DNA of 64,000 nt from Pseudomonadota bacterium (GTDB lineage Bacteria; Chloroflexota; UBA5177), in assembly GCA_021324655.1 (NCBI GenBank), contig JAJPIP010000009.1, positions 1 through 64,000 on the forward strand, written 5' to 3'. The notes beneath the pieces are model-generated. The model was not told the origin of the DNA. It did not search any database and saw only the letters and a list, made by a program, of their open reading frames with translations. The position numbers were made by a program, and so were the translations under genes. Numbering within the stretch: position 1 is the first letter of the stretch; each line of letters opens with the position of its first letter. Below, piece after piece: positions 7,350 through 43,729 of this stretch.

Positions 7350-7589
7350 ATGGCGGGGAGGAAAGCGCGGCGCCGCGCCGAGAGACAGCGGCAGAAGCGC
7401 CACGAGCGTCGAGCGCCCTCCTCTCCCGTGCGGCGGGTTGTCGTCATTGCCTTCGGACTGGTGGCGATTGTCGCGGGGGTCGCGCTCATCACGCACGGAA
7501 CGTCGGCCCAGCGGTTGGCACGCCTCGCCGGCATCCTGATCGTCGTTGGCGCGGCGGCGATTCTGGCCGGAGCGCTCGGCTGGGTCTAG
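7350..7589 (+). CDS. Small two-helix membrane protein
   Basis: A 79-residue protein with a strongly basic first 28 residues (lysine/arginine-rich, RKARRRAERQRQKRH) followed by two hydrophobic helices (VVVIAFGLVAIVAGVALI and the C-terminal GILIVVGAAAILAGALGWV). The basic head would stay in the cytoplasm. There is no clear ribosome site, and no family is recognised. Its stop overlaps that of converging argS by 4 bases (CTAG). Composition and hydrophobic pattern support a real gene; function is unknown. Confidence 0.6.
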   Translation: MAGRKARRRAERQRQKRHERRAPSSPVRRVVVIAFGLVAIVAGVALITHGTSAQRLARLAGILIVVGAAAILAGALGWV

Positions 7590-42024: not shown

Positions 42025-42048
42025 GGCGCCTGCCCCGCGGCAGGCGCC
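42025..42048 (-). terminator. Hairpin with T-rich tail after the LPXTG gene
   Basis: A perfect 10-base stem (GGCGCCTGCC, loop of 4, then its complement) follows the LPXTG gene stop by 14 bases and is followed on the minus strand by ATTCTCTTTTCTC. This fits an intrinsic terminator, though the T tract is interrupted. It lies just ahead of moaB. Confidence 0.65.
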
Positions 42049-42062
42049 CTTTCGTCCAGTGG

Positions 42063-42572
42063 CTAGCGCTTGATCAGGCGCGGAAGCGTGCGTCCGGCAG
42101 CGATGGCAGCTGCCGCCAGGAGCGACAGGGGAGCCAGCGGGCTGGACGGGTTGCCGCCGGCGCCACCGCCGGTCGTCGGCAATTGCGTGGGCGCACCACC
42201 CGCAATCGTGTGGCCGGACGTGCCGCCGTGACTGGTCGTCGACACGAACGTGCCGCCACCACCCGGATGCTGTGAGGATTTCACCGTCGGAATCGGCGTC
42301 GCCGTTGCGCTCTTAGACGGCTTCGGCGTCGACGTCGGCGCCGGCGGAGTAGCCGTCGGCGGGACCGCGGTGGCGGTCGGACTCGGAGCTACCGTCGCAG
42401 TTGGAGACGGCGGTCCCGGCGGTGTCCCGACCGGAGTTGGGATGAAGGTCGGCGGCGGTGGAGGGGGCGTGCCGGTCGATGCGTACGAGTGAGATGAATG
42501 CATTACCCCGCTGACGGCGATCGCGCCGATCGCCACCGGTAATGCCAGACCTATTGAAATACTTCTCTTCAT
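42063..42572 (-). CDS. Secreted LPXTG-type surface protein with Pro/Thr-rich spacer
   Basis: A 169-residue protein. The ATG at 42572 has AAGGAG upstream and opens a signal peptide (KRSISIGLALPVAIGAIAV). The mature part is low-complexity Pro/Thr/Ser/Val (PTPVGTPPGPPSPTAT and similar), with no folded domain visible. At residues 131-135 LPTTG is followed by a Gly-rich stretch, a hydrophobic segment (LAPLSLLAAAAIAAG) and a basic tail (RLIKR), the standard sortase sorting signal. No sortase gene is in the window. It has its own promoter and a long structured leader. Confidence 0.72.
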   Translation of the reverse strand: MKRSISIGLALPVAIGAIAVSGVMHSSHSYASTGTPPPPPPTFIPTPVGTPPGPPSPTATVAPSPTATAVPPTATPPAPTSTPKPSKSATATPIPTVKSSQHPGGGGTFVSTTSHGGTSGHTIAGGAPTQLPTTGGGAGGNPSSPLAPLSLLAAAAIAAGRTLPRLIKR

Positions 42573-42604
42573 GCAGGACTCCTTGCGCGTGAATGTGCGT
42601 TCGG

Positions 42605-42760
42605 GTCGCCTGAATGCCGCCGTGACCGGCGACATCATTATCGCTGCGCGTTACGTCGATTCCTTCGGAATCGTCCGACCGGGCCTCACTCCGATCGGGG
42701 CCATAGCGGAAAGCCACCCCGCCTCAGGCTCTCTACATCACCCCTTTCGTACACGCAGCG
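42605..42760 (-). promoter_or_regulatory. Highly structured 5' leader of the LPXTG gene (candidate cis-regulatory RNA)
   Basis: The transcript from about 42785 to the ATG has 213 untranslated bases. A long-range stem pairs 42748-42760 with 42642-42655 (about 13 pairs with one bulge). Inside it are a hairpin at 42709-42733 (7 pairs), a stem pairing 42675-42680 with 42693-42698, and a perfect GATTCC-GAA-GGAATC hairpin (42658-42672). A further stem pairs 42605-42610 with 42628-42633 just before the ribosome site. Bases 42752-42757 could instead pair with 42586-42591, next to the AAGGAG. It matches no riboswitch class that I recognise. Confidence 0.55.
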
Positions 42761-42791
42761 CGGTAGTCATCGTTGTCGCCTCAGCACCCTC

Positions 42792-42820
42792 ATCTTACCT
42801 ACGGCCCAGAAGCCTGTCAA
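42792..42820 (-). promoter_or_regulatory. Near-consensus promoter of the LPXTG gene
   Basis: On the minus strand TTGACA (42815-42820), exactly 17 bases, then TAAGAT (42792-42797). Initiation is expected near 42785, about 213 bases before the start codon. Confidence 0.75.
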
Positions 42821-42850
42821 CGAAGTTTTCACGTATTCTTCACACTGCAT

Positions 42851-43729
42851 TCATTCTATCTTCATTCTAAACGGCCCGCAGATCTGTCGGAAGGCCGGCG
42901 AGCACCACAGACGGGCGTGCCGCACCGTCCGCGCCAACCATTCGCTGAAGGCCCGCGCAATCAGAAGATGCCGGGCCATGGCCCCATAAGTATGGGTTCC
43001 GTGTCCGAGAACCCGAATGATGATGACAGATGTGCCGCGCCGAAATGGACCGACGAAGTCACCGCGCGCTGCGGACAGAACCGAGGGCCGGATCGTTGGG
43101 CCAAGTCGGAACGCCGGAAGCCACTCGGTGAGGACGGCAGTGCCTGACGGCGGAGAAGAGCCGCCGGAGGTTCTGGTGATCTCCTGAAAGACGTTCCTCC
43201 GCTCGGTGCCCGCCGGCCACGGGAGAATAAACTCCTCGATATGCAATTCCTGACCGGCCGGGCGAATCGAGGCTATGGCACGTTCGACCTTCTCAATCAG
43301 ACGCTGCGTCTCCAGAACGCGCCGCAACTGGGCTCGCCGGAGACCGTGCGCAAACTGAGTACCAGGTGAATGGGGCGCGGTGAGCGAACTTAACGCATCA
43401 TTCACCGCCGCCTCATCCGCTGAATCGAGCACGATGTGATGGGTGCGCGCGTAACTCAGGACGAGGCGCTGTTCGATGAGGCGAAAAAGTGCCTGGCGGC
43501 GGAGAACGCCACACGCCGCGCGGCTCCCGGCGCGGCACCGCGCGCTGTCGCCCGCCGGATATGAGACAGCATTGACGGACTCGGCGAATGCGATGGATCG
43601 GTTGACGTCCGCCGCGGAAATGGCGCTCCCGTTCACCCTTGCAATGGGACCAGGCGGGACGACCGGGGTAGGGCCGCCGCAGGAGGAGACGAGAACAGCG
43701 AGGCAAATCAGAATCAAAAGTCGAGTCAG
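42851..43729 (-). CDS. SurA/PpiC-like lipoprotein, peptidyl-prolyl isomerase family
   Basis: A protein of about 292 residues. With the proposed CTG start at 43729 (GGAGAG five bases upstream) the N-terminus is TRLLILICLAVLVSSCGG, a lipoprotein signal with a basic residue and a lipobox (VSSC); the TTG at 43717 would remove the only positive charge. The next part matches the SurA N-terminal chaperone domain (IARVNGSAISAADVNRSI, ALFRLIEQRLVLSYA). The C-terminal third resembles a rotamase domain (ELHIEEFILPWPAG, GDFVGPFRRGTSVIIIRVL). It probably helps fold exported proteins outside the membrane. Confidence 0.75.
   Translation of the reverse strand: MTRLLILICLAVLVSSCGGPTPVVPPGPIARVNGSAISAADVNRSIAFAESVNAVSYPAGDSARCRAGSRAACGVLRRQALFRLIEQRLVLSYARTHHIVLDSADEAAVNDALSSLTAPHSPGTQFAHGLRRAQLRRVLETQRLIEKVERAIASIRPAGQELHIEEFILPWPAGTERRNVFQEITRTSGGSSPPSGTAVLTEWLPAFRLGPTIRPSVLSAARGDFVGPFRRGTSVIIIRVLGHGTHTYGAMARHLLIARAFSEWLARTVRHARLWCSPAFRQICGPFRMKIE

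Follow-up and report, generated by a model that had tools for sequence, protein, structure and literature searches.

A Conserved Structured Leader RNA with a Probable Translational Role Upstream of a Putative Sortase-Anchored Surface-Protein Gene in One Chloroflexota Family

The LPXTG Gene, Its Locus and Its Promoter

The window analyzed here is a stretch of 64,000 nt from a genome of a Chloroflexota lineage (G000). On its minus strand, a gene (42063..42572) codes for a secreted, Pro/Thr-rich protein of 169 amino acids, which is composed of a signal sequence, a Pro/Thr-rich middle part, the motif LPTTG and a hydrophobic tail. The protein had neither a Pfam match nor an informative NCBIfam match, and its orthologs are 51–59% identical. 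When the sequence was read by eye, the features of a sortase substrate were found, i.e., a signal peptide, an LPxTG motif, a hydrophobic stretch and a basic tail, together with a sortase encoded in the genome. Sortases are present in six of seven genomes of the class. G000 possesses two sortase-family genes (C111:6370-6744 and C36:21957-22367), both located on contigs other than that of the LPXTG gene.

Orthologs of the leader preceding this gene occur in G001, G002 and G004. The gene order is common to all four loci: SurA-like lipoprotein gene, promoter, leader and LPXTG gene. In G000 and G002, moaB follows next. In G005, which belongs to a sister family of the same order, moaB lies directly after the SurA-like gene (L048 C25, around position 7500), and the interval between the two contains neither an LPXTG gene nor the leader. 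From this comparison, the leader and the LPXTG gene have the appearance of an insertion specific to the family.

An earlier reading of the letters without database searches (the sequence-only reading) had placed a near-perfect promoter and a leader of about 213 nt upstream of the start codon ATG at 42572 (minus strand), and both were confirmed. The −35 hexamer TTGACA (42815..42820, minus strand) is separated by 17 bp from the −10 hexamer TAAGAT (42792..42797, minus strand), matching 10 of the 12 consensus positions. A region scan returned this pattern once, with 0.4 occurrences expected. TTGACA-17-TAwGAT lies at the equivalent position in the three other genera; thus, the −35 hexamer is invariant and the −10 hexamer reads TAwGAT throughout. 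Downstream of the promoter, the sole terminator-like site is an intrinsic terminator 3' of the LPXTG gene (42025..42048, minus strand), and the transcript is probably monocistronic. Since the leader itself contains no terminator-like site, transcription attenuation is argued against.

Structure of the Leader RNA

The conserved structured core of the leader (42638..42765, minus strand; about 125 nt) consists of a closing stem and three arms; it was delimited by covariance-model match and is supported by folding z-scores and pair counts. All features described below lie on the minus strand. The closing stem P1 is formed by a 5' strand (CGCTGCGTGTACG; 42748..42760) and a 3' strand (42642..42655) with an invariant CGCAGCG. 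Next to the former lies the invariant block GAAAGGGGkGATG (42736..42748), of which GGGGk forms P2a with a strand of pyrimidines whose end lies at 42697; P2a is paired in all four species, with one change on both sides. The hairpin P2b (GAGAGCC/GGCTTTC with a G-rich loop; 42709..42733) is mostly invariant, and 92.9% of its cells are paired. In the hairpin P3 (GATCGGaGTGAGGCCCGGTC; 42677..42696), two pairs are changed on both sides. The hairpin P4 (CGATTCC-GAA-GGAATCG; 42657..42673) shows three compensatory pairs among G000, G001 and G002, and it is not clear in G004. In G002 (L049 9791-9935), P4 is extended at its tip by an additional hairpin of some 16 nt. Downstream of the core, the hairpin P5 (42614..42635) has a counterpart of unrelated sequence at the same place in the relatives. 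The 13-pair closing stem (42760-42748/42655-42642), the three inner helices and the separate hairpin (42635-42614) of the sequence-only reading were all recovered in the RNAfold minimum free energy structure.

The whole leader was mildly more stable than its shuffled versions (z of −1.85; 9 of 200 shuffles), while none of 200 shuffles reached the core alone (z of −3.78). The stability of the whole leader is only modestly unusual because its 5' end and spacer dilute that of the core. Single-sequence folding of the core against shuffles gave z-scores of −3.10, −3.63 and −2.37 for the three orthologs.

A DNA search of 101 genomes confined the leader to the family of the window, with 71% identity over 198 nt in G001, 68% in G002 and a partial match in G004. 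RNAalifold applied to the four-sequence alignment yielded P1, P2a, P2b and P3. The consensus energy was −74.4, compared with a mean of −49.7 for 300 conservation-preserving column shuffles (z of −5.4; 0 of 300). Counting on the named structure revealed standard pairs in 94.4% of the pair cells and in 37–50% when the structure was slid along the alignment. Five pairs were altered on both sides among the four sequences. The covariation score of 0.312 was reached by one of 500 shuffles, and slid structures scored at most 0.129; with four sequences, the covariation rests on few changes. P1 says little about covariation because it hardly varies. MAFFT misplaced P4 in the four-way alignment; aligned by hand, its strands read CGATTCC/GGAATCG, CGGTCCC/GGGGCCG and CAATTCT/GGAATTG, which accounts for its three compensatory pairs. 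When G004 was held out of the model, it scored 53.6 bits with structure and 41.7 bits without; as the weight given to sequence differs somewhat between the two models, this gain of about 12 bits is supportive rather than exact.

Folding of single sequences reproduced the consensus in part: P2b was absent from the fold of G001, and both P1 and P2b were absent from that of the full G002 leader. P1 formed in all four species when the core was folded alone. Alignment folding of P5 and the ribosome-binding site (RBS) region was not significant. Covariation among homologous leaders, by which the sequence-only reading had proposed to judge its candidate, was present in this set of four. Judged from sequence comparison, we regard the leader as a real conserved and structured RNA with covariation. 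It combines the features by which structured cis-regulatory RNAs are recognized, namely a covarying structure (four sequences) and a constant location, across species, within the 5' UTR of one and the same gene.

A Predicted Ribosome-Binding Site Hairpin

The Shine-Dalgarno sequence (SD) AAGGAG (42579..42584, minus strand) lies inside an invariant GCGCAAGGAGTCCTG. It is embraced by a short predicted hairpin, CCCGAACGC...GCGCAAGGAG (42579..42605, minus strand), whose pairs include the GG of the SD. The hairpin has the form CC-GAA-CGC...GCG-CAA-GG, in which CC would pair with GG and CGC with GCG, leaving GAA/CAA as internal loops. Its pairing strands are invariant in the four genera, and the stretch CCCGAACGC...GCGCAAGGAGTCCTG is nearly so. 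Conservation of the SD region, with GCGCAAGGAGTCCTG and ATGAAGAG invariant, far exceeds that of an ordinary RBS. The predicted pair probability was 0.96 in G000 and 0.98 in G004, and 0.1–0.2 in G001 and G002.

The sequence-only reading had proposed a two-state switch, in which the closing stem would give up its 5' strand to a strand beside AAGGAG. The alternative pairing (42757-42752/42591-42586) does exist on paper, with six pairs including one G-U, but only UGCGY/GCGCA (five pairs) is kept elsewhere. Forcing it costs 12.1 kcal/mol in G000, it brings no extra conservation, and no low-energy alternative fold was found. For control of the ribosome site, the local hairpin around the SD appears to be the more likely candidate. 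What stands of the earlier claim of an undescribed regulatory RNA is a novel, structured, conserved and covarying leader, but not the two-state switch.

The Four-Repeat Operator

Four direct repeats TGAA-N7 with a period of 11 bp (42828..42864, minus strand) matched exactly; shuffling the window gave an expectation of 0 for this pattern. They end 7 bp upstream of the −35 hexamer, and exact repeats are found at the same distance in G001, G002 and G004. The repeats extend into the SurA-like ORF upstream, covering its final codons, and its stop codon lies inside them. All four genomes have just two exact copies each of the four-repeat pattern, one at the LPXTG promoter and one at the promoter of a probable small RNA (sRNA). 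The sequence-only reading had noted neither this operator nor the sRNA.

Direct repeats of 11 bp are typical of OmpR/PhoB-family regulators. All four repeats with this spacing were found at both loci in the four genera, and, judging from the repeat pattern, the site is probably bound by a response regulator of this family. PhoP of Streptomyces binds 11-bp repeats with GTTCACC (PMC9019756), and M. tuberculosis PhoP binds 7-bp repeats with 4-bp spacers (PMC4832192). The operator resembles the PHO box of actinobacterial PhoP in its 11-bp direct repeats and in the core TTCA on the complementary strand. It differs in that only two exact four-repeat sites are present per genome and in that the repeats are oppositely oriented relative to the two transcripts. 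Membership in a phosphate regulon was also considered. No paired TTCA/TGAA 11-bp repeats were found around the PF12849 genes of G001, G003, G004 and G005, and no PF12849 phosphate-binding protein was found at E 1e-5 in G000 and G002, although relatives have one. Since the phosphate-binding-protein genes checked lack such repeats, a role in phosphate control is not supported.

A Probable Small RNA with the Same Operator

The second operator copy of G000 precedes a conserved element of about 90 nt that ends in a terminator hairpin and lies outside the window (G000:C39:59478-59600; L078 4479-4600), with counterparts on G001:C92, G002:C252 and G004:C48. Here, the operator reads in the other direction (TTCA repeats) and is followed by a −10 sequence TAnnnT. 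The conserved stretch of the element, ACAAcyGAATAGCGArGGGCCAGCACGCAA...CCTTTCGC, is followed by a hairpin rich in G+C and by a short run of T residues, and its loop CAGCACGCAA is invariant. Because the flanking genes differ between the genomes, the element is an independent unit. It folds as two hairpins in each species (single-sequence z of −1.9 to −5.0), and in G004, the pairing of the second hairpin is kept with quite different letters. The alignment z of +0.8 is uninformative, as MAFFT misaligned the terminator. A GTG is present in the conserved stretch of G000; the start codon is missing in G002 and G004, and G001 carries a one-base insertion, which makes a peptide unlikely. Taken as a sequence element, it is a probable sRNA.

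At the sRNA promoter, the repeats cover the region from −35 to −10, with TTGC(G/A)T located 17 bp upstream of the −10 sequence. Those of the LPXTG promoter lie just upstream of the −35 hexamer. By ordinary promoter logic, this placement would suit repression of the sRNA and activation of the LPXTG gene.

Distribution and Comparison with Known RNA Families

The leader had no match in Rfam 15 at the gathering threshold, and a lax threshold returned one unrelated chance match (3.8 bits; E 4.5). None of the ortholog leaders matched either; one weak match was located beyond the gene, at the terminator. The sequence-only reading had likewise seen no consensus core of the TPP, cobalamin, c-di-GMP, c-di-AMP or Mn classes.

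Two model scans detected the leader in 4 of 400 genomes of the phylum, the remainder being chance-level matches; the motif is missing from about 395 other Chloroflexota genomes. The LPXTG protein was found in 4 of 151 genomes and the probable sRNA with its box in 4 of 400, and leader, LPXTG gene and sRNA are confined to the same four genomes. G003, a member of the same family with a completeness of 84%, lacks all three. When 84,980 genomes were scanned with a DNA pattern, no genome came up beyond the three known relatives. The best weak match beyond the four (G073) sits inside a trpD-like coding sequence, and the one match of a pattern scan of viral contigs was given no support by the model. 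A short leader peptide was rejected as well, the frame after GGGGkGATG being not conserved and consisting of ATG-TAG in the window.

With orphan riboswitch candidates and structured 5' leaders, the leader shares a stem-closed multi-arm domain, conserved blocks, proximity to the RBS and its placement within the 5' UTR of a single gene; it differs in matching no Rfam 15 family and in being limited to one bacterial family and one gene. Like translation-repressing RBS hairpins, including RNA thermometers, it would hold the SD in a hairpin with internal loops. It differs from these in that a large conserved domain precedes the hairpin and in that pairing of the SD is predicted in two of the four species.

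Interpretation of the Leader

With moderate confidence, the leader is interpreted as a new lineage-specific cis-acting RNA, probably translational, that belongs to a two-component regulon and precedes a putative sortase-anchored surface-protein gene. Transcription would start at the strong sigma-70 promoter, with an OmpR/PhoB-family regulator probably bound to the repeats abutting the −35 hexamer. The transcript would fold into the four-helix domain of about 125 nt supported by comparison, followed by the spacer hairpin and the predicted short hairpin embracing the SD. The folded domain may then meet a metabolite, protein or RNA partner, upon which access to the SD would be altered, most likely at the level of translation. 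The shared operator suggests that the same regulator probably also governs the sRNA. A bolder extension, which we regard as doubtful, is that the leader represents a new RNA family, recognizing a ligand or protein partner of its own, and that it forms a closed circuit for a single surface protein together with one sRNA and a dedicated response regulator, the regulator having opposite effects at the two promoters.

Structured leaders have usually been found via their wide distribution, and such surveys would overlook a leader that occurs in just four genera of an uncultured lineage. With a single gene, leader, probable sRNA and operator, the system is a compact test case, and it would provide an initial insight into how surface proteins are regulated in this Chloroflexota lineage.

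Alternatively, the folded 5' end might merely stabilize the mRNA or keep the RBS free, with neither a switch nor a partner. The very stable closing stem would fit such a passive leader, as would the failure to find a conserved alternative fold, the proposed swap being about 12 kcal/mol worse. However, the invariant blocks GAAAGGGGkGATG, GGnTGGCTTT and CCCGAACGC...GCGCAAGGAGTCCTG exceed the needs of a passive helix, and we consider this explanation rather unlikely.

It is less probable still that the co-regulated sRNA pairs with GAAAGGGG and UGGCUUU of the leader and thereby refolds it. Both loci occur in the same four genomes, they carry the same operator in its only two exact copies per genome, and antiparallel complementarity exists at two places in most species. 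This complementarity is, however, not above chance, since 25–37% of column-shuffled leaders reach it, and RNAduplex was uninformative on the pairing.

The swap of the closing-stem strand is very improbable: in every one of the four species, UGCGY could pair with the GCGCA next to the SD, but outside G000 this amounts to five pairs only, the energetic cost in G000 is as given above, and the RBS hairpin already explains GCGCA. Equally hard to credit is a separate small RNA processed from the leader, to which the gene would be incidental: the compact, stable core would fit this, but it is followed by no terminator-like site of its own, the order of promoter, core, RBS and start codon is kept in the four genera, and core and gene always occur together.
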